Positions 98-31,319 of a stretch of 64,000 bases of DNA are shown here, one piece after another. The translations under genes were made by a program, and so were the position numbers. This DNA is from Verrucomicrobiota bacterium. GTDB taxonomy: Bacteria > Verrucomicrobiota > Verrucomicrobiia > Verrucomicrobiales > Verrucomicrobiaceae. The notes beneath the pieces were generated by a model that saw only the letters and a list, made by a program, of their open reading frames with translations, was not told where the DNA came from and ran no database searches. The stretch is taken from NCBI GenBank assembly GCA_009885695.1, contig VFKE01000022.1, positions 1 to 64,000 of the forward strand, written 5' to 3'. Position 1 is the stretch's first letter; each line of letters opens with the position of its first letter.

Positions 98-1249
98 ATG
101 AAAGCTGGTCTTGATGCAATCGCATCAATCCCCATGGAAACTCATTCACTTTTTAATTCTTACCCGCTCGAAGACTACCGCGCGCACCGGCAGGAGATCG
201 AGGCGTCGTTGCACGCCATGCTGGAGCGGGGGCATTACATTCTCGGAGGAGAAGTGACGACATTCGAACGCGAGTTTGCCGAATGGGTCGGCGTGCGCCA
301 TGCCATTGGAGTGGCGAACGGCACAGATGCGATCGAGGTGCTGCTGCGCGGACTGGGCATCGGGTGCGGTGATGCAGTGGCGGTGCCTTCGCACACGGCG
401 GTGGCGAGTGTGTCTGCAATTGCGCGATCCGGGGCGACTCCGGTGTTTCTCGATGTGGACGCAGCAACTTACACGATCACGACCGGGTCTTTGGAGGCGG
501 CGTTGCGCGAGGACAACTCTATTAAGGCGGCGCTTGCGGTACATCTCTATGGACATCCGGCGGACGTGGCTGGGTTGCAGGTGCTCTGCGATCAGCGCGG
601 TATCGTTCTTCTGGAAGATTGCGCGCAGGCTCACGGCGCGACCTGGCAGAAACGCAAAGTGGGATCGCTGGCGCGCGGTGCGGCTTTCAGTTTCTACCCG
701 ACGAAAAATCTCGGTGCCATCGGCGATGGCGGTGCCATCACAACGGATGACGATAAACTGGCCGTTCGCATTCGCGAAGTGCGGCAGTATGGCTGGCGCG
801 AGCGTTACATCAGTGCGGTCGAGGGTGTGAACAGCCGTCTCGATGAAATGCAGGCCGCGATTCTCCGGGTGAAACTCCGGACGCTGTATGCGCGGAACGC
901 AGCGCGGCGCAGGCTGGCGGCACTGTATACGGAAGGCTTGCGGGAGCTTTCGTTCGCCGATGCTCCCGTGGTGAAGCCCGGTTGTGAGCATGCCTTCCAT
1001 CTCTACGTGATTCGCTCCAAACATCGCGATGCCTTGATGAAGCATCTCCTCGATGCTGGCGTGCCTGTGGCCTTGCACTATCCGGCAGCTGTGCATCAGC
1101 AGCCCGCGTATGCGGCGGTGAAGCACGGGTCCCTGACGCAGACAGAGGCGCTCGTTCCGGAAATTCTTTCACTGCCGTTGCATCCCTTTCTGAGCGATGA
1201 CGCGGTGCAGTTCACGCTCGATGCCATGCTTAAATTCTCTGCTTCATGA
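98..1249 (+). CDS. DegT/DnrJ/EryC1/StrS family PLP-dependent sugar aminotransferase
   Basis: 383-aa ORF; motifs GTDAIEVLLRGLG, HLYGHPADV, EDCAQAHGA, FSFYPTKNLGAIGDGGAI typical of DegT family. Confidence 0.95.
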   Translation: MKAGLDAIASIPMETHSLFNSYPLEDYRAHRQEIEASLHAMLERGHYILGGEVTTFEREFAEWVGVRHAIGVANGTDAIEVLLRGLGIGCGDAVAVPSHTAVASVSAIARSGATPVFLDVDAATYTITTGSLEAALREDNSIKAALAVHLYGHPADVAGLQVLCDQRGIVLLEDCAQAHGATWQKRKVGSLARGAAFSFYPTKNLGAIGDGGAITTDDDKLAVRIREVRQYGWRERYISAVEGVNSRLDEMQAAILRVKLRTLYARNAARRRLAALYTEGLRELSFADAPVVKPGCEHAFHLYVIRSKHRDALMKHLLDAGVPVALHYPAAVHQQPAYAAVKHGSLTQTEALVPEILSLPLHPFLSDDAVQFTLDAMLKFSAS

Positions 1250-7428: not shown

Positions 7429-8423
7429 AAAGTGTCATCGTGCTCGGAGCCGGAAGCTGGGGCACCGCACTGGCCGCAATGCTGGCGGAGCGTGGACTTC
7501 AAGTTCAACTCTGGGGTCGTGATGAAGTGTTGATGCGTGAAATTTCGGAGACGCGGAAAAATTCACGGTATTTACCTATGCTGGAAATTTCTCGTGAGAT
7601 TGAAGTGACGCACCGAATGAAAGATCTCAGAGCTGCTGATCTCGCGGTTTTCGTCATTCCTTCGAAGGGGCTGCGCTCGGTTGCGGGTGAGTTGAAGAAG
7701 GTCAACGTGTTCGGTGGAACGGAAGTGTTGCTCTCATGTACCAAGGGAATTGAACTGGAGACCGGCGAACAGATGTCGGAAATTATCGGGGAAACATTTC
7801 CCAAACATTTGCTGGCCGCGCTTTCGGGACCGAATCATGCGGAAGAAATCGCGCGGCGCCTGCCATCGGCTGCGGTCGTGGCCTCGGCCAGTCCCGAAGT
7901 GGCCGTTCAGCTCCAGAATGTTTTCACGCTGCCGTGGTTTCGTTGTTATACCAGCGATGACATCACGGGCGTGGAGTGGGCCGGGGCGATGAAGAATCCT
8001 TATGCCATCGCTGCGGGCATCGCGCGCGGATTGAACCTGGGCGACAACGCCATCGCGGCGCTGGTGACGCGGGCGCTGGCGGAGATGGTGCGATTCGGTG
8101 TGAAGCAGGGCGGAAGAGTGGAGACATTTTATGGATTGAGCGGAGTGGGCGATCTGGTGACGACGTGTTACTCGGAGCACAGCCGGAACAACCGCGTCGG
8201 GAGGCTGCTCGGGCAGGGGAAGAGTCTCGCCGAGATCATCGCCAGCACGCGCATGGTGGCGGAGGGGGTTCCGAACACGGAAAGCCTGTGGCGTTGCGCG
8301 AGAGAAATCGGAGCGAGCACGCCGCTGCTTGATGAAATTTACGCAGTTCTCTATCAGAACAAACCGCCCAAGGAAGCTTTGCGCGAGCTGCTGGGGCGTG
8401 ATCCGCGGCCGGAGGCGGACTAA
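7425..8423 (+). CDS. gpsA: NAD(P)-dependent glycerol-3-phosphate dehydrogenase
   Basis: VIVLGAGSWGTALAAML, SGPNHAEEIARRLPSA, GAMKNPYAIAAGIARGLNLGDNA, GVGDLVTTCYSEHSRNNRVG. Confidence 0.96.
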   Translation: MKSVIVLGAGSWGTALAAMLAERGLQVQLWGRDEVLMREISETRKNSRYLPMLEISREIEVTHRMKDLRAADLAVFVIPSKGLRSVAGELKKVNVFGGTEVLLSCTKGIELETGEQMSEIIGETFPKHLLAALSGPNHAEEIARRLPSAAVVASASPEVAVQLQNVFTLPWFRCYTSDDITGVEWAGAMKNPYAIAAGIARGLNLGDNAIAALVTRALAEMVRFGVKQGGRVETFYGLSGVGDLVTTCYSEHSRNNRVGRLLGQGKSLAEIIASTRMVAEGVPNTESLWRCAREIGASTPLLDEIYAVLYQNKPPKEALRELLGRDPRPEAD

Positions 8424-8550
8424 GTGGCACCGGCTTGCAGCCGGTGTGTAACCCCGACATTCTGTCGGGGCAGCATTCGATACCAGTATACTCTCGGACA
8501 CGAGCCGGCAGAATGCCCGGCATACACACAGCCTGCAAGGCTGTGCCACT
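8423..8550. repeat. REPIN-like inverted repeat, GTGGCAC...GTGCCAC class (four consecutive hairpins)
   Basis: AGTGGCACCGGCTTGCAGCCGGTG ... CACAGCCTGCAAGGCTGTGCCACT; begins at the gpsA stop codon; same architecture as 29722-29829. Confidence 0.85.
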
Positions 8551-10784: not shown

Positions 10785-11672
10785 TTACGGTTTCAAGGCG
10801 GCGACAATCGCTTTCACGTTGTGCTTGAGCATGGTCTCAAAGGTATGGGCGTCGATGGAAGTGCCGTCGGCGACCAGCGACTGGCCCGCTTTGGCTCCGG
10901 TCTCGCGCGTGATCTCTAGGAGGACTTTGGGGTTGGCTTGATCCTCGGGGAAGACGGCGCGGATTTTGTTGTCGCGGATGATCTTCACGGCATCGGTCAC
11001 ATATTTTGGCGAGGCGGAATCTTCGCGTGAGATGCCGAGGACGGGAATGCTCTTGAAGCCGTATTCCTTGCAGAAGTAGCCGAATGCGGCGTGGCCCGTG
11101 ACTAGCTTGCGGTCGCTCTTGGGGATTTGTGCGATCTGCTGCTGCGCCCAGCTTTTCAGGGCGGCAAACTTCTGCTGTGCGGCTGTGGAGTTGGTCTTGT
11201 AGAATTCCTTGTTGGCGGGGTCGGCAGTGGCGAATTCATCGGCCACGATGCGCGCGGCCCGCTGCATGTTGTCGGCGCTGTGCCACCAGTGAGGATCAAT
11301 CCCGCCTGCGGCGTGTGCGGGGCAGCACATGAAGACTTCGGAGCCTGCGGAGATTTTTAGTGAGGGGATGAGCTTGCCCACCTCTACAATTTTCACGCTG
11401 GGGCCGAGGTTGTCGTGCAACTTTTCGAGGTAGCCTTCCAGATGTTTGCCGGATGCTAGCACGAGCTTCGCGCCCCGGGCCTCACCGAGGGTGCGGGCGC
11501 TGGGCTCGAAATGATGCACGTCCCCCCCGGGACCGAGGAGATCGACGACGCTGACGTTCGCGCCGCCGATCTGACGGGCGAGGTCGCCCAGAATCGGATG
11601 CAGCGTGGCGACCTTGAGTTCTGCATGTGCTAGGCTGGCGCAGGCGAGAGTGAGGAGGGTGGTGAGTTTCAT
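10785..11672 (-). CDS. znuA: zinc ABC transporter substrate-binding protein (ZnuA/cluster A-I)
   Basis: signal peptide; GGDVHHFEPSARTL, GIDPHWWHS, VTGHAAFGYFCKEYG, FPEDQANPKVLLEITRETGAKAG. Confidence 0.93.
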   Translation of the reverse strand: MKLTTLLTLACASLAHAELKVATLHPILGDLARQIGGANVSVVDLLGPGGDVHHFEPSARTLGEARGAKLVLASGKHLEGYLEKLHDNLGPSVKIVEVGKLIPSLKISAGSEVFMCCPAHAAGGIDPHWWHSADNMQRAARIVADEFATADPANKEFYKTNSTAAQQKFAALKSWAQQQIAQIPKSDRKLVTGHAAFGYFCKEYGFKSIPVLGISREDSASPKYVTDAVKIIRDNKIRAVFPEDQANPKVLLEITRETGAKAGQSLVADGTSIDAHTFETMLKHNVKAIVAALKP

Positions 11673-11683
11673 GGTTGGGGTTT

Positions 11684-11767
11684 GTAGTCCGGCCTTCAGG
11701 CCGGCAGGTGGAAATGAATGCTGACCGGTGATGTAGATGAAGAACGACGGGCTGAAGCCCGGACTAC
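11684..11767. repeat. REPIN-like inverted repeat, GTAGTCCGG...CCGGACTAC class
   Basis: GTAGTCCGGCCTTCAGGCCGG ... CGGGCTGAAGCCCGGACTAC, between the porin 3' end and znuA. Confidence 0.8.
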
Positions 11768-22972: not shown

Positions 22973-25900
22973 ATGAAAAAGTCATCGCTTCTAGCTGTCC
23001 TGAGCCTCCTCCTTGCGAGCCGCGTGCCCGCTGCCGAACTGATCATCACCCCGGAAACCATCACTCCTTCCTCGACCCTCGAACTCCGGTTTGAGACTCC
23101 CATGATCGACAAGGACCGGGTCGGGTCGGTGGAGAAGGAGTCGCCGCTGGTTGGCGATCCAGCCATTACCGGCGAGTTCAAGTGGACCAGCACCCGGAGC
23201 GGTCAGTTCCGTTTCACCCAGCCCCCTGCCTTTGCCACGACCTATAAGTTCCAGCTTCGCGCGGGCTTGAAAGACGCGTCGGGCAAGGAGGTCGAGGCCG
23301 AGAAGTTTGACAAATCCAAAACGGAAGGGTTCCGCATGGTTACCCAGTCGCGCGACTATCCCTATTCTCATTCTTACGGGCAGGCTGGCATCCAGCAGCG
23401 GGTGCCTCGCTATCTACTTCAGTTTTCGGATGCTGTGGATGCTTCGGCTGCTGCCGATCAGATGAGTTTTGTCAGCAAGGCTGGCACCCGGGTGGCGGCG
23501 AAGGCGCGGCTGGCGACAGGCAAGGACTTTCGCCGTCGTTATGTGCAGTATGCTCCGACCTGGGACGAGCTGGCCACTGGTGGCAAAATCCAGCCCAAAC
23601 CTGAAGACATGCGGCCCAACGCTTTGATCGTTGAGAGCCAGGAGCCGCTAACAGTTGGCGAGAGTTGGACACTCCTGGTGCCGAAGTCATTTACCAATCT
23701 GGCCAAGAAGGCTACGATGGACGAGGAAAAGCTTCTGGTGTGGGGCAACGTCGTCAAATTGGAAGTCAAGCACGCGGTTGAAGCGACACATTTTGATCGG
23801 CCGCATTCCATCGAGGTTCATTTTAACAAGTCTGTCGTCTGTGCGCCAGAGGCCGCCGGGGATGACGCGCATTTCCGCCCCTTCATCAAGGTGGAACCCG
23901 CGCCACCGGGGTTGAAAATCATCTCAGCTTACGGCGGAAACACGATTCAAGACGAAAAGGGCGGCGAGCACCGTTACTCGAACTCGGTCAGGCTCGAAGG
24001 CAAGTTCGCGTTGGAAACCGAATACACCGTCACCGTCTCTCATGAAATTCCGGCTGCTGATGAAATCGGGATGGTAGCAGGCTTCTCCAAAGCACACGTG
24101 TTCCACGCCAGCAACGCCTACGTCTCGACTTCCGCTTTCCAAAACACCCAGCTTTCGAGCGGGAGCGGCCTCTTCGACATCTATGCTGCCAACTATAAGA
24201 ATCTGCGTGTTCGAGTGAAGCAGCTCAACGACGGCGACCTGATCCAGGCGCGGATGCTCTATCAGAAAACTTACAATACTTGGGATGACGGCAAGGGGAA
24301 GAACATAACAAAGTTTGAGTCCGCACCCTTCGAAGATTTCCCCGGCAAAGTCGTTTTTGACAAGACCTACGCCAATCAAAAGCCGCTGGAAAAGGCTACG
24401 CTGATCAATCTCAAATGGAGCGAGGTGCTCGGCCAGACTCCGGCCGCGCCTGTGTTCGTCGAGATCGAAGGCTCGCCGCAGGAAGGCGCGCCCAGCGGCA
24501 TCATCTTCAACCGGTCGATTGTCGAGTTCACTGACATTGGCCTCATGGTGAAAAATTCGGGTGTGGAGACCATGGCTTATGCCTTCTCCCTGCGCACGGG
24601 TGCGCCGCTGCCGGATACGCAGGTCACTTTTACGGACAACGAACGCGGCTATCTCGGCTCAGTTCCCACCAACGACAAGGGCATCGCCACCCTGAGTGCG
24701 AAAGGCTCGAAGGGCTGGGCGCTGGCGAAGCGCGGCGCGGATTGTGCGGCGCTGGATTTTGGTGACGGTTACGGCGGCATTTCGCTCTGGCGTCATGGCG
24801 TGCAAAATTATGCGTATGACTCGCCGTGGAAACGGCAGACGCAGACTTTCATCTTCTCCGATCGCCCCGTCTATAAGCCGGGCGACACGGCGCACGTTAA
24901 GGCCATCGCCCGCCTGCGGAGCGGCGATGATTTTTCTCTCGGCATGAGACCGCTCAAGGCGAAGCTGATCGTGAGCGATCCGCGTGGTCGCAACATTCTG
25001 ACGAAGCCGATCACGTTTTCCGCGAACGGAACCTGGAACGATGACGTTAGATTCCCCGAGACCTTGACCGGCTGGTATTCCCTGCAAATTGCATATCCAA
25101 AAAAGGAGTCAGATGGCGCTGAGGAAACCGATGGTGCGGAGGAGTCCGATGAATACAACCGCTACGGCGGGGCCAGTCTCAGTCTCCGGGTGGACGACTA
25201 CAAGCCGAACACGTTTGAGGTCGCGCTCGACGGTGCGAAGCACAAGTTGGAGCGTGATCGCATCACGGTGCCGCTGCGCGCACGTTATTATATGGGCAAG
25301 GCACTGTCACAGGCGAAGACAACATGGAGTGCCAGCCTTCAGCAGAACTTCCAGGCGCCAGCGGACTTCGCGGAGTTTTCATTTGGCGATGTCGAGAGCA
25401 GGTGGCACTACGGGGAGGATCGCGACGAGGAGACAGCCGCTGAAGAAGAGCCCGAGAAGCAGTGGGGGGCCAATGGCATCATGGAACTTGCTGAAGACGG
25501 CACAGCGAGCATCGAACTGCCGCTTCCACCGCCCCACAAGGAAGCGCTGCCGCAGACGATCATGGTGTATGCCGACGTGACCGACGTGAACCAGCAGACG
25601 ATTTCCGCCAGCACTGAATTTCAAATACCTGGCGCTGACTTCCTCGTCGGAGTGAAGAAGAACAAATGGTATGGCAATGTTGGGAAGGTGTTCGACTTTG
25701 ATTTCACTTCCATCACGCCCGAAGGAAAACCCTTCCAGGCACCGGTGCCGGTCGATGTGAAGATCGAGCGCCAGGAATGGAACACCGTGCGTGTGCAGGC
25801 TGCAGGCGGCGATGTCACCACGAAGAATCAGGTGACGATGACCCAGGAATTGAAGACCACGCTTCAAGTCGAGGGCGCAAAAGGCGTGACCAAGGCGCTG

Positions 25901-28831
25901 ACGGTGTTTCAGTTCACGCCGAAAAAAGGTGGTACTTATTTCCTCACCGCGACGGCGAAGGATGCCAAGGGGTTGAACGTCATCACGCGGGTGCCATTTT
26001 ACGTCCTCGGCGGCGACGGCTATCCGTGGTCTTGGGAAGATGGAGAAAAAATCACGCTCCAGCCGGACAAGACAACCGCCAAACCCGGCGAGGAAGTCAC
26101 GATCGTGGTGAAGTCCCCGATCTCAGGCACCGCGCTGGTCACCGTGGAACGCAACCGCGTGCATCGCTCATTCCTCGCAACCATCACGCCGGAGAATCCC
26201 GTGGTGAAAGTCCCCATCACCGATGAAGATTCGCCCAACGCCTTCATCTCAGTCATGGTCATCCGTGGCGCGGCGGACAGCCCGCAGGCTGAGAAGATGC
26301 CTGAATACAAGCTGGGTTACTGCGAGATCATCGTGCCCTCCGTGGCGAAGAAACTCTTCGTGGAGGCCAAACCGACCCAGTCAATTGTGCGGCCCGGCGA
26401 GGAACTCACCGTGAATGCGACTGTAAAAGACAACAAGGGAACCCCGGTCGCCGGCAGCGAAGTCACGCTCTATGCCGTGGATGAAGGTGTGCTCAGCCTG
26501 ATGTCTTACGAGACGCCGATGCCCTTCGCCTTTTTCCATGCCTCTATGGGGCTGGCTGTCAGAACGTTCACCACGCTCAGTAGTCTCCTGGCCGAGGACA
26601 TGGACAAGCGCGACCGCGGCAACAAAGGCATCATCGTCGGCGGCGGCGGGGAGGAAGGCGGCGCGGATGCAGCCATGCGGAAAAACTTTGTCGCCACGGC
26701 AACATGGAACGCATCGCTCATCACCGACAAGGATGGCCGCGTCAGCACCACATTCAAGGTGCCCGACAGCCTGACGCGCTACCGCATCATGGCCATCGCC
26801 GTGAAGGATGCCGACCGCTTCGGTACTGGTGAATCTTCTTTCACCGTGAACAAGCCGCTGATGGTGGAACCCGTCGTGCCGCGTTTCGCCCACGTCGGTG
26901 ATGAAATCCTCATCAAGGCCGTGCTCCATAACACCACCGCGTTCAGCGGCGAAGTCGAAGTCGAACTGAAGCTGGACGACACCGCGACACTCATCAGTGA
27001 GGAGCGACCTTATGCCCTGGTCGCGATGCTGAAGAACCGCACCATGACCAACGACGGCAAGCTCGACCGCCGCAGCATCACGCTCAAGGCTGGTGAGACC
27101 ACGGCGCTGGCGTTCCCGGTGAAGTTCGTCAAAGCTGGCACCTGCGCCTGGCAGTGGCGCGCGCGCACCGTGAAGTGGAGCGATGCCAAAGAGCTGGCCG
27201 ACGCGGTAGAGAGCAAGTTCGAAGTCACCCAGTCCGCGCCTGCATTGCGTGAAGTGCATTACTTTGAACTCACCAGTGCCAAGTCGAATGAAAGCCTCCT
27301 CAAAGGCATCAATCCTCAACTCCTCGAAAGCGACGGCACACTGCGGCTCGATTTCAACCGCAGCCGGCTCGGTGAAGCGCGCGATGCCCTGGAGCATTTG
27401 CTGCATTACCCTTATGGCTGTGTCGAACAAACCACCAGCAGCACATTGCCCTGGCTCGCGCTGGCGAAATATGAACCGATGTTCCCCGACCTCCTGCAGC
27501 AGGACAAGGTGCGCAACGCCATCACTCGCGGGGCTGACCGCCTGCTCACGATGCAGACCGACGAAGGCGGCCTTTCCTACTGGCCGGACGGCGAGAAGCC
27601 CTTGCTCTGGGCTTCTGCCTATGGCGGCTATGGCTTGATCAAGGCGAAGGAATGGGGCGCATCGGTGCCGCAGGAAGCGGTGGATAAACTCACCACCTGG
27701 ATATCGAGACAACTGCGCGAATTGAAGCTTGCGGATACCAAGGAGACCTCCAATCTCTGTGACTCCGCGCTCGCGCTTTACATGCTGGCGAAGGCGGGCA
27801 AGCCGGAACCTTCCTATCAGACAGTGCTCTATCAGCGCCGGGATGATCTTCCGGAAATGTCCCGCCTCTTCCTCGCGATGGCCATGTGCCTGACGAATAC
27901 GCCGGAGAAGCAGATCACTGAACTGCTCAAACCAGCAAAAGGCACCAGGCAATGGGATCAATACTGGCTGGGCGACAAGACCGCTGCCGGCTTGCGCATG
28001 ATCGTCTGCGCGCATCTCGGTCTGACGGATGAAGGAAATAAATACGCCAGTGAAGTGCTCGCGCGTCGCAATGGCCAGGGACACTGGGGCACGACGTTTT
28101 CAAACTCCTGGTTGCTGCTTGGCCTTGCCGCCGGTGAGAAAGCGCCGAAGGATGCCAAGCCGATCAGCTTCGAAGTCGCCTGGGGCGACAAGAAGAGCGA
28201 CCTCACGCTGGCTGACACGATGAGCACCACCAGTTCGATCTATGAGTTCGATAGCAAGCTGGGTGCGAAGACTCTGCGTGCCACCGTGCCCGCCGGCCAG
28301 ACGGTGCGGGGACGCGTCGAACTGAAAGCCTGGCCGGATCTCAAGACATTCCAGTCTGTGCAGAAGGGTTTTGGCATCAAGCGCCGCTATGAGCGTCTCA
28401 CTCCGACGGGCGCGCTGGAGGAGTCGAAGAACCTCCGCGTTGGCGATCTCATTGTGGTCACGCTCGACATCAAGGTGCTCAAGGGCAACCGCTACCTTGC
28501 CGTCGAAGATCCGCTACCCAGTGTGTTCGAGCCGGTAAATCCGGAGTTCGCCACGCAGAACCAGCGCCAGGATGCCAAGGCTCAGGACAACGCCTGGTAT
28601 TGCGACTATCGCGAACTGCGCAATGACAAGGCCTTGTTCTTCACGGATGACTGGAGCCAGCTTGGAACCTTCGAGTTGAAATACCTCGCCCGCGTCATCG
28701 CCGAGGGCGATGTCATCGCGCCGCCCGCGCGCATCGAAGCCATGTATCAGCCCGATCAATACGGTCTCAGCGACATCACCCGCGTGCAGACCCTGCCGAT
28801 GACCAATGGCGGAAACGTGGCGGAGAAGTAA
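22973..28831 (+). CDS. bacterial alpha-2-macroglobulin family protein with thioester motif
   Basis: 1952 aa; signal peptide; MG domains (RPVYKPGDTAHVKAI), VPDSLTRYRIMAIAV, thioester YPYGCVEQTTS at about 27416-27430. Confidence 0.94.
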   Translation: MKKSSLLAVLSLLLASRVPAAELIITPETITPSSTLELRFETPMIDKDRVGSVEKESPLVGDPAITGEFKWTSTRSGQFRFTQPPAFATTYKFQLRAGLKDASGKEVEAEKFDKSKTEGFRMVTQSRDYPYSHSYGQAGIQQRVPRYLLQFSDAVDASAAADQMSFVSKAGTRVAAKARLATGKDFRRRYVQYAPTWDELATGGKIQPKPEDMRPNALIVESQEPLTVGESWTLLVPKSFTNLAKKATMDEEKLLVWGNVVKLEVKHAVEATHFDRPHSIEVHFNKSVVCAPEAAGDDAHFRPFIKVEPAPPGLKIISAYGGNTIQDEKGGEHRYSNSVRLEGKFALETEYTVTVSHEIPAADEIGMVAGFSKAHVFHASNAYVSTSAFQNTQLSSGSGLFDIYAANYKNLRVRVKQLNDGDLIQARMLYQKTYNTWDDGKGKNITKFESAPFEDFPGKVVFDKTYANQKPLEKATLINLKWSEVLGQTPAAPVFVEIEGSPQEGAPSGIIFNRSIVEFTDIGLMVKNSGVETMAYAFSLRTGAPLPDTQVTFTDNERGYLGSVPTNDKGIATLSAKGSKGWALAKRGADCAALDFGDGYGGISLWRHGVQNYAYDSPWKRQTQTFIFSDRPVYKPGDTAHVKAIARLRSGDDFSLGMRPLKAKLIVSDPRGRNILTKPITFSANGTWNDDVRFPETLTGWYSLQIAYPKKESDGAEETDGAEESDEYNRYGGASLSLRVDDYKPNTFEVALDGAKHKLERDRITVPLRARYYMGKALSQAKTTWSASLQQNFQAPADFAEFSFGDVESRWHYGEDRDEETAAEEEPEKQWGANGIMELAEDGTASIELPLPPPHKEALPQTIMVYADVTDVNQQTISASTEFQIPGADFLVGVKKNKWYGNVGKVFDFDFTSITPEGKPFQAPVPVDVKIERQEWNTVRVQAAGGDVTTKNQVTMTQELKTTLQVEGAKGVTKALTVFQFTPKKGGTYFLTATAKDAKGLNVITRVPFYVLGGDGYPWSWEDGEKITLQPDKTTAKPGEEVTIVVKSPISGTALVTVERNRVHRSFLATITPENPVVKVPITDEDSPNAFISVMVIRGAADSPQAEKMPEYKLGYCEIIVPSVAKKLFVEAKPTQSIVRPGEELTVNATVKDNKGTPVAGSEVTLYAVDEGVLSLMSYETPMPFAFFHASMGLAVRTFTTLSSLLAEDMDKRDRGNKGIIVGGGGEEGGADAAMRKNFVATATWNASLITDKDGRVSTTFKVPDSLTRYRIMAIAVKDADRFGTGESSFTVNKPLMVEPVVPRFAHVGDEILIKAVLHNTTAFSGEVEVELKLDDTATLISEERPYALVAMLKNRTMTNDGKLDRRSITLKAGETTALAFPVKFVKAGTCAWQWRARTVKWSDAKELADAVESKFEVTQSAPALREVHYFELTSAKSNESLLKGINPQLLESDGTLRLDFNRSRLGEARDALEHLLHYPYGCVEQTTSSTLPWLALAKYEPMFPDLLQQDKVRNAITRGADRLLTMQTDEGGLSYWPDGEKPLLWASAYGGYGLIKAKEWGASVPQEAVDKLTTWISRQLRELKLADTKETSNLCDSALALYMLAKAGKPEPSYQTVLYQRRDDLPEMSRLFLAMAMCLTNTPEKQITELLKPAKGTRQWDQYWLGDKTAAGLRMIVCAHLGLTDEGNKYASEVLARRNGQGHWGTTFSNSWLLLGLAAGEKAPKDAKPISFEVAWGDKKSDLTLADTMSTTSSIYEFDSKLGAKTLRATVPAGQTVRGRVELKAWPDLKTFQSVQKGFGIKRRYERLTPTGALEESKNLRVGDLIVVTLDIKVLKGNRYLAVEDPLPSVFEPVNPEFATQNQRQDAKAQDNAWYCDYRELRNDKALFFTDDWSQLGTFELKYLARVIAEGDVIAPPARIEAMYQPDQYGLSDITRVQTLPMTNGGNVAEK

Positions 28832-28927: not shown

Positions 28928-31319
28928 GAAGAAATTGAGATGGCTTTGGAAGCTGGGCCTGGGGTCGATCATCATGGCTGCGTGCGCATGGTGGGCGCTT
29001 CCCTGGGCTGTCCCGTTGCCGGAGAAACTGCTCCAGCCGCTTCAGGCATCGCCCACTTTTCTTGCCACCGATGGAACACCGCTGCGCCAGATGCTCAGTG
29101 CTGATGGTCAGCGCGTGGCATCTCTGGTGAGTTTGGAGGATATTCCCTATGACCTTATTCACGCCACGCTCGCAGCTGAGGACCGGCGGTACTTTTCGCA
29201 TGGCGGCGTGGATCTTGCCGCCATCGCCCGCGCGACGTGGGACAACCTGATGGCGCGTCGTGTCGTGTCCGGCGCCTCGACCATCACCCAGCAACTGGCG
29301 AAAATTTCCGCCGGTGGTCCCAGGCCGCGCCGCTTGTGGACAAAGGTGATCGAAGCTCTTCAGGCCCGACGCCTTGAAATGACCTGGAGCAAGGATCGCA
29401 TCCTCACAGAATATTTGAATCGCGTTGGCTACGGCAATCTGCTGACCGGCTGTGCCAGCGCGGCCCAAGGGTATTTGGACAAGCCGTTGCACGATCTTTC
29501 TCCAGCCGAATGCGCCTTCCTCGCTTCGCTGCCGCAGGCTCCGTCGCGGCTCAACCCCTTCAAAAATTTCAAGGCGGCGCAGACGCGGCAGAAGTTCGTT
29601 CTCGATGGCATGGTCGAGCGTGGCTGGCTCACTGCTGAGAAACGGTTGCTCGCGAGTGAAGAGAAAATTGTGTTGCAGCGTTTCAACGGCGGCTTCGAAG
29701 CACCGCACGCCATTGAGCTGGCTTGTGGCACAGGCTTGCAGCCTGTGTGTGGAACCGGCATTCTGCCGGCTGAAACGCAAGCGGGCAAAATGCCCGCTTT
29801 ACACACAGGTTCAAAACCTGTGCCACAAGTTGTACGCACCACGATCCTGCCAAATCTGCAGATGCGCGTGGAATCGATCATCGCCCGCCGGCTGGCCACG
29901 CTGCGAGATCGTCATGTGACACAAGCCGCTGCGGTGGTCATTGAGAATAAAACGGGCCGAGTGCTGGCGCTGGCCGGCTCCCGTGATTTTTTTTCCAATG
30001 AAGGCGGACAGATCAACGGCGCGTGGGCGCCTCATTCCGCAGGTTCGGCGGTGAAGCCCTTCACTTACCTGCTGGCGTTGCAGCGCGGGTTCACTCCCGC
30101 TTCGATCATCCCCGACCTGCCCATCGAATTCAGCACGCCCGGCGGCATTTACCGGCCGGAGAATTACGATCATCGCCACTACGGCCCGGTGACGTTGCGC
30201 GCGGCGCTGGGTGCTTCGTTGAACATTCCCGCCGTGCGAGTGTTGAAACAGATCGGCGGCGAGAAGGCATTGTATGACACGCTGCAAAACCTCGGCATCA
30301 CCTCGCTCACGGAGCCGCCGGATCATTACGGTCTGGGTCTAACCATTGGCAATGCGCCCATGCGACTTCTGGAACTGACTAACGCCTATGCCTGTCTCGC
30401 GCGCCTTGGTGAATACAAACCGTGGATCCTGCTGGCCGATGCGCCGGAAGCGGCGAACAGACGCGTGTTTCCACGCGAGGTGTGTTATCAGATTGCGGAC
30501 ATCCTTGGAGACAATCAGGCGCGCGTTCCAACCTTCGGTCCCTGGTCGGTCATCCGGCTGCCCTTCAAGGTCGCAGTGAAGACCGGCACCAGCCGGAACT
30601 ATCGCGACAACTGGACGCTCGGCTATTCGCCGGAGTTCACGGTGGGAGTGTGGGCGGGCAACTTCGATCATACGCCGATGGAAAACGTATCTGGCGTCAC
30701 GGGTGCGGGGCCGATCTTCCGTGACATTTTTCTGCGCCTGCGGGAATCGTCCGGTACCAGCTGGTTTGACGCACCGGCCGGGATCGTTCATGCAAAGATT
30801 GATCCGCGCACGGGACGTCGGGTGCCGGAAACCGGGATGGTGGTTCGCATGAGCCGGCCTGAGGTTTTTGTCAGCGGCTCGCTGCCCGACGAAGCAACGA
30901 TGAAGGATTACGAAGCGGAGTCGGGTCGTGCGTATCTGTCGGACGATTATGCAAAATGGATTTCCCAAGGAGATCAATGGCTGACGGGGCTTGTTTGCCT
31001 GAGGCCGACGACGGTGGCGTTACTGCCGCCGCGCATTCTTTCGCCCACGGATGGGAGCGTCTTGTTTCTGGATCCTGATCTGCCAGAAGAAGGTCGAAGG
31101 CTGTTGTTGCGGGCGCAGGAGAGTGAGTCGGTAAACTGGGATTCGCCGACGTTGCGCATCGACGGGAACGATGGTGCTCCGGTGGCATGGCTGATTCCGG
31201 GTCGTCATGAGATCACAGCGTTCCACCGGAAATCCGGCTTGCAGACGACGGTGTCGGTCGAGGTGCGGGATGCGTCGGAGCTCGCGGCACAGCGAAGGAG
31301 CAAGTTGCTGGTCAGGTGA
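28902..31319 (+). CDS. pbpC: penicillin-binding protein 1C (transglycosylase/transpeptidase)
   Basis: GT51 AAEDRRYFSHGGVD, GASTITQQLAK; transpeptidase SAGSAVKPFTYLLAL, KTGTSRNYRDNW; downstream of A2M as in E. coli yfhM-pbpC. Confidence 0.95.
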   Translation: MSFFTSAATKKLRWLWKLGLGSIIMAACAWWALPWAVPLPEKLLQPLQASPTFLATDGTPLRQMLSADGQRVASLVSLEDIPYDLIHATLAAEDRRYFSHGGVDLAAIARATWDNLMARRVVSGASTITQQLAKISAGGPRPRRLWTKVIEALQARRLEMTWSKDRILTEYLNRVGYGNLLTGCASAAQGYLDKPLHDLSPAECAFLASLPQAPSRLNPFKNFKAAQTRQKFVLDGMVERGWLTAEKRLLASEEKIVLQRFNGGFEAPHAIELACGTGLQPVCGTGILPAETQAGKMPALHTGSKPVPQVVRTTILPNLQMRVESIIARRLATLRDRHVTQAAAVVIENKTGRVLALAGSRDFFSNEGGQINGAWAPHSAGSAVKPFTYLLALQRGFTPASIIPDLPIEFSTPGGIYRPENYDHRHYGPVTLRAALGASLNIPAVRVLKQIGGEKALYDTLQNLGITSLTEPPDHYGLGLTIGNAPMRLLELTNAYACLARLGEYKPWILLADAPEAANRRVFPREVCYQIADILGDNQARVPTFGPWSVIRLPFKVAVKTGTSRNYRDNWTLGYSPEFTVGVWAGNFDHTPMENVSGVTGAGPIFRDIFLRLRESSGTSWFDAPAGIVHAKIDPRTGRRVPETGMVVRMSRPEVFVSGSLPDEATMKDYEAESGRAYLSDDYAKWISQGDQWLTGLVCLRPTTVALLPPRILSPTDGSVLFLDPDLPEEGRRLLLRAQESESVNWDSPTLRIDGNDGAPVAWLIPGRHEITAFHRKSGLQTTVSVEVRDASELAAQRRSKLLVR
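29722..29829. repeat. REPIN-like element inserted in frame inside pbpC (108 bp)
   Basis: CTTGTGGCACAGGCTTGCAGCCTGTGTGT ... ACACACAGGTTCAAAACCTGTGCCACAAG; four-hairpin architecture as at 8423-8550. Confidence 0.9.

Follow-up and report, generated by a model that had tools for sequence, protein, structure and literature searches.

The closest described relatives of the element considered here are the REPINs of Pseudomonas fluorescens SBW25, the intragenic REPs of the GTAG superfamily, and the palindromic elements of Rickettsia. The SBW25 REPINs are inverted REP doublets of about 70-110 bp that are linked to RAYT genes, and they are extragenic (Bertels and Rainey 2011, PMC3116915). Intragenic GTAG REPs were described mostly from Opitutus terrae, whose GTAG-20 family occurs as inverted dimers and in-frame genic copies with the tag changed to GTGG in most cases; in the various species its hosts include the two uvrA genes, DNA polymerase I and further genes of repair (Di Nocera et al. 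2013, PMC3733652). Rickettsia palindromic elements (Ogata et al. 2000, 2002), as the available text of PMC6649704 and PMC3733652 presents them, are mobile palindromes carried in frame by many unrelated, often essential proteins, with the tag CGTC in RPE-4 and RPE-6. One survey of RAYTs states that proteins longer than expected were left out of it, as fusions or errors of annotation (PMC6006769).

The element studied here resembles each of these systems in part. It shares the inverted doublet and the RAYT link with the SBW25 elements, but its units each carry a further conserved hairpin, and a fair proportion of the copies is genic. Like GTAG-20 it has a GTGG tag, inverted dimers and in-frame genic copies, and the hosts in common are both uvrA-type genes, polA and repair genes, here including mutS and mfd. 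Neither pbpC nor mfd, mutS, tsaD, hemC, sufD or gcvP appears by name in the available main text of PMC3733652, which also describes no constant phase of reading, no dated insertion whose sister allele has collapsed, and no complete RAYT genes lying in frame within host genes. The pbpC insert is an addition to the published intragenic REPs of the Opitutus terrae type. With the Rickettsia elements it has in common a palindrome in frame in host proteins, as judged from open frames and empty sites with translation presumed; it is tied to a RAYT and, its tag being GTGG rather than CGTC, it is not classed as an RPE.

The window, the whole 64,000-nucleotide stretch of DNA that was analysed, comes from a fragmented draft genome of 3.47 Mb in 216 contigs (G000; its sister species is G001) and contains the gene for penicillin-binding protein 1C (Table 1). 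The product matches the PBP_1c family over its full length (NCBIfam TIGR02073, 499 bits, cut-off 494) and is 84% identical to the protein of the sister species, and the dN/dS of 0.095 between the two genes indicates purifying selection. Residues 261-305 are modelled with a pLDDT below 50 between confident domains, and the insert is predicted to be disordered. Immediately upstream lies a very large ORF of 1952 aa (22973-28831), of the alpha-2-macroglobulin type by eye. The pairing of such an ORF with pbpC is common, and it looks ordinary here.

The first-pass annotation had placed a 108-bp nested inverted repeat (29722-29829) in the linker of this protein. The repeat is present, Pfam domain positions agree with its location between the GT51 and transpeptidase domains, and its reading frame and peptide are as first given; comparison of the whole family, which sets the ends at GTGG and CCAC, reduces the mobile unit proper to 102 bp. 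The outer CTT/AAG are flanking bases that lengthen the palindrome in the pbpC copy and not in other copies. The inverted-repeat arms (29722-29771 and 29780-29829) are 80% complementary with a spacing of 8 nt, and as single-stranded DNA the palindrome folds at -42.2 kcal/mol, compared with -20.8 +/- 2.6 for shuffles (z = -8.25). The copy thus has the form of a REPIN, with inverted REP units and a spacer that can fold into a single hairpin. Its in-frame reading would give (C)GTGLQPVCGTGILPAETQAGKMPALHTGSKPVP(Q), which takes up residues 275-309 of PbpC, and the predicted PbpC sequence at this place includes CGTGLQPVCGTGILPAETQAGK. The earlier description of two Cys-free segments plus one Cys-containing start was inexact, as the insert has two cysteines, C275 and C283 (CGTGLQPVCGTG...).

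Table 1. Positions of the pbpC gene, its REPIN, related elements and RAYT-bearing reading frames (window coordinates unless a locus or contig is given)
Feature	Position	Strand	Remarks
pbpC, penicillin-binding protein 1C, 805 aa	28902..31319	+	ORF intact, insert in frame
Pfam matches in the pbpC protein	residues 69-237; 343-610; 709-773		Transgly; Transpeptidase; BiPBP_C
GT51 transglycosylase domain	29106..29612	+	Pfam PF00912, E 2.7e-52
Transpeptidase domain	29928..30731	+	Pfam PF00905, E 1.4e-20
REPIN in pbpC	29725..29826	+	two inverted two-hairpin REP units, 102 bp = 34 codons, GTGG...CCAC ends
5' REP unit	29725..29772	+	covariance model R1, 65.9 bits, E 1.6e-15
5' unit: tag GTGG; hairpin 1; hairpin 2	29725-29728; 29729-29747; 29755-29769	+	
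3' REP unit, inverted	29779..29826	-	covariance model R1, 66.5 bits, E 1.2e-15
3' unit: tag; hairpin 1; hairpin 2	29826-29823; 29822-29804; 29797-29781	-	
CACAGG direct repeat, left	29729..29734	+	bounds the 75-bp deletion of the sister allele
CACAGG direct repeat, right	29804..29809	+	other bound of the 75-bp deletion
Second full REPIN, same family	8424..8549	+	outside any supported gene
R1 unit of second REPIN	8424-8471	+	69.2 bits
R1 unit of second REPIN	8502-8549	-	63.1 bits
leuS with in-frame RAYT, G000	L143:45-3350 = contig C121:85544-88849		
RAYT-NUDIX loci	L042:1488-3011; L202:565-2259; L203:790-2385; L204:772-2274		
ADH-Gfo/Idh loci with RAYT	L205:451-3396; L206:430-3381		

The family is dispersed and multicopy, as expected of REPINs, and its abundance is far above what chance would give. 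BLAST gives 64 element matches in the genome, the loci examined hold about 54 distinct full or half places (57 were listed originally, a few of them repeats in overlapping loci), and the covariance model finds at least 85 half-unit matches genome-wide. The half-unit consensus is GTGG, a CACAGGC-TTGCA-GCCTGTG hairpin, TGTAGC and a CCCGGGC-ATTCT-GCCCGGG hairpin. Across 56 units the tag is GTGG in about 50 and mostly GTAG or GTAA-type in the rest, and it is followed by the CACAGGC...GCCTGTG stem; a GTAG or degenerate 5' tag ahead of an imperfect palindrome is the hallmark of the GTAG superfamily. Both hairpins co-vary: 97.2% of cells are paired against 84.6% after shuffling, double-sided changes number 56 where shuffles give 11.7 and slid controls no more than 9, and the covariation score is 0.341 against 0.102. 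The intergenic copy of the same element type that had been noted at 8423-8550 is real, with slightly narrower limits, two R1 units and no coding frame found across it. A weak match to the unit model at window positions 11659-11706 (15.9 bits, E 0.028) is possibly a decayed half element. A sub-type with CTTTCAGAGCC in hairpin 1, whose two extra bases shift the frame downstream, was seen in G000 only outside supported genes (L046, L047, L048, L055, L056, L063, L064).

A RAYT gene can be tied to these units. Among the 18 Y1_Tnp genes of the genome, the one on contig C151 has an R1 unit on each side, the two in inverted orientation (72.9 and 71.3 bits), in arms of 47 bp with 3 mismatches. Its nearest homologue, at 59% identity in genome G013, is likewise flanked by R1 units, and that genome has at least 80 unit matches by covariance model; in both cases a RAYT gene is bounded by the same REP, as in REPIN systems. 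The sister species has no RAYT above 52% identity to the C151 RAYT and only 6 unit matches. Genome G012, which belongs to another genus, has 86 unit matches among the matches listed; despite these, none of its RAYTs exceeds 46% identity to the C151 RAYT (56% for a partial one).

A search of the genome for other in-frame copies, which the first-pass annotation had suggested, was productive: 15 ORFs with named families carry the element in frame, pbpC and about 14 others. The hosts include proteins of DNA repair (UvrA, a second UvrA-type protein, so that both uvrA-type genes are hit, Mfd, MutS and PolA), GcvP, TsaD, HemC, SufD and TrhP, as well as a CusA-type RND pump, a MacB/FtsX permease, a heparinase-like protein and an ADH-Gfo/Idh fusion. 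Relatives mostly have short linkers or empty sites at the corresponding positions. In TrhP the insert is complete in this species and in the sister alike, and the dN/dS of 0.35 for this shared insert, which is below 1 and derives from only 15 changes, makes some constraint on the peptide possible. In MutS, GcvP, SufD and UvrA, REP peptides occupy the same sites in G012 (L189, L190, L194, L195) as in G000 (L049, L038, L068, L039), but the sister species lacks them. Scarless loss in the sister and repeated insertion at the same permissive sites are therefore both possible.

All 12 intact upstream (5') units in genes are read in a single phase, offset 1 (SGTGLQPVCSPGILPG), which yields the peptide (S/C)GTGLQPVC(S)PGILPG. 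Across 56 units, offset 1 is open in 52 and offset 0 in 49, and use of offset 0 in genes was not seen; the single-phase use of the 12 genic units has a probability of about 3e-4. In most units the TAG of TGTGTAG closes offset 2. Offset 0 would give a Cys-rich hydrophobic peptide, and selection against this product would explain the single phase. A target preference, for example for (T)GA right before GTGG, could add to the bias. For the 8 genic copies that score well, neither strand is closed in the phase used (16 of 16 readings open, compared with 23 of 36 for intergenic copies), a difference biased by the fact that the genes were found through their open frames.

The history of the pbpC copy can be followed in the sister species, whose gene has CTGTGGCCCAGGTTTAAAGCCCGGACCGCAAG at the same site and is exactly 75 bp shorter, in frame, retaining 33 of the 108 bp or about 11 codons. 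Because the two CACAGG repeats of the full copy lie 75 bp apart, the length missing in the sister, a slippage deletion between them can account for the shorter allele. Family orthologues from other genera have unrelated linkers of about 5-25 aa without the element. Since the element is present at the same site in both species and absent from distant orthologues, the two alleles indicate that it entered pbpC before the species split and that the gene stayed in frame in both lineages. The proposed alignment of orthologues for empty sites gave a divided result: the distant orthologues lack the insert, but the sister gene, considered as an empty site, was rejected on account of its 33-bp remnant, and the genus yielded no true empty site. 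Outgroup linkers are too variable to define the target bases. Two outcomes that would have told against the first-pass annotation did not arise, in that the more distant orthologues do not have the peptide at this place, and pbpC, with its intact frame, low dN/dS and family score above the cut-off, does not look like a pseudogene.

Very probably, then, pbpC contains a REPIN from a GTGG-tagged REP family within the GTAG superfamily, as selfish DNA that is tolerated in frame rather than recruited. Its architecture of two inverted units, the dispersed family with co-varying hairpins, and the RAYT bounded by the same units are direct observations, and the early recognition of a REPIN-type element inserted in frame in a PBP1C linker is upheld by this architecture, by the intergenic kin and by the absence from distant orthologues. 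The accompanying proposal of domestication, under which selection would keep a linker needed for PBP1C spacing or for contact with a partner, is improbable. The insert does lie between two catalytic domains of an intact and constrained protein, it predates the sister split, and the trhP insert shared by both species evolves at a dN/dS below 1. However, the sister holds only a remnant, short unrelated linkers suffice in family orthologues, no structure is predicted for the insert, and much the same peptide appears in many unrelated proteins. Together, the sister deletion, the predicted disorder, the covariation at the DNA level and the roughly 14 unrelated hosts argue for tolerance and against recruitment.

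Two further explanations were weighed. Ribosome hopping, comparable to that at mitochondrial byp elements, or RNA processing might leave the mature PbpC without the insert; the RNA/DNA hairpin at this place is strong, and the available text of PMC6649704 mentions translational bypassing of palindromes in yeast mitochondria. Bypassed DNA would need neither an open frame nor a shared phase, yet the genic copies either have lengths divisible by three or continue in an alternative open frame as far as the end, their used phase is open more often than in intergenic copies (with the bias noted above), and the in-gene units all share one phase, making this explanation very unlikely. An artefact of assembly or gene calling, or a decaying pseudogene, might be suspected in so fragmented a draft, but it is scarcely credible in view of the collapsed form at the same place in the sister assembly, the full-length PBP_1c match, the purifying selection on pbpC and the same element type in frame in 14 further conserved genes.

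If the insert is tolerated selfish DNA, a RAYT, a Y1 HUH transposase, would have moved the REPIN into pbpC in trans via single-stranded DNA, and the same process would have placed copies in the other G000 proteins. The pbpC copy may have been retained by virtue of landing in a variable linker and in the only phase that gives a soluble, turn-rich and stop-free peptide. Its translation would then add a disordered spacer that PbpC does not require, and the copy could shrink in frame by slippage between repeats within the palindrome.

Entire RAYT genes appear to have entered proteins in a similar manner. LeuS of G000, the only leucyl-tRNA synthetase gene found in the assembly, is a 1102-aa open frame with Y1_Tnp between the Pfam LeuRS domains; the RAYT unit spans 654 bp, a multiple of three, with inverted ends identical at 28 of 28 positions and neither a stop nor an ATG of its own. 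The sister LeuS is without this insert. Among 386 genomes sampled evenly across the order, at least 29, G000 included, have LeuS-RAYT hybrids (L262 and L291-L317 among the loci). In all 29 the insertion site lies between AHDERD...QVV and ...NSGFLDG, within a single editing-domain loop that corresponds to residues 364-376 of Thermus LeuRS. Most of these RAYTs have REP-type inverted repeats at their ends, often of 22-36 bp with 0-2 mismatches, and 25 of the 29 hybrids have no ATG between LeuS and RAYT; one hybrid (G323) has a stop within the matched stretch. An AlphaFold model of the hybrid is weak (mean pLDDT 58.9, shallow alignment), with the RAYT and C-terminal parts predicted confidently.

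A single ancestral insertion in LeuRS was considered and rejected, as the LeuRS label has to change 5 times on the RAYT tree (2 of these changes are forced by starred branches). G259/G351 and G000/G010 form pairs in the LeuRS tree and not in the RAYT tree, and this disagreement between the two trees indicates that insertion, or replacement, recurred. It is probable that whole RAYT transposons, from several RAYT lineages, were inserted in frame repeatedly at this one editing-domain loop and made an HUH transposase an internal domain of an essential enzyme, with HsdR, NUDIX and ADH-Gfo/Idh being comparable cases and the pbpC REPIN the small, non-autonomous form. No report of RAYT transposons in frame within LeuRS was found in the literature searched, relative to which whole in-frame RAYT insertions are, as far as shown, new.

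RAYTs in frame were also observed in other hosts. A type I restriction HsdR ORF (L145:505-3501, G000 contig C176) contains one that has peptides of a different REP family on either side, NPLHGGKGGQECPPSV and SSPLPTTKGGLGNPPSV. The C151 RAYT continues in frame via a REP peptide into a NUDIX gene, an arrangement also present in G013, G067 and G065, and such joins of a RAYT to a NUDIX hydrolase via a REP-like peptide thus occur in four genomes of three genera. The NUDIX-joined RAYTs make up one clade (support 99/96 and 100/97), which suggests an inherited fusion or read-through. In G021 and G023 one protein has an in-frame RAYT, with REP peptides on both sides, in the linker that joins its zinc-dehydrogenase half to its Gfo/Idh half, and the same linker in the G000 homologue (L134) has REP peptides.

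As far as the sequences indicate, a bacterial repeat regarded as extragenic can spread in core proteins, where it would be translated as a linker, and in-frame shrinkage of such inserts is illustrated by the pbpC gene of the sister species. The account given for the retention of these elements in one phase is testable. For annotation, the findings bear on leucyl-tRNA synthetases of about 1,100 aa and on odd GTGLQPV or GETPALP peptides. If whole transposons do survive as internal domains of LeuRS, mobile DNA would have a way to remain in indispensable genes without the splicing on which inteins depend.
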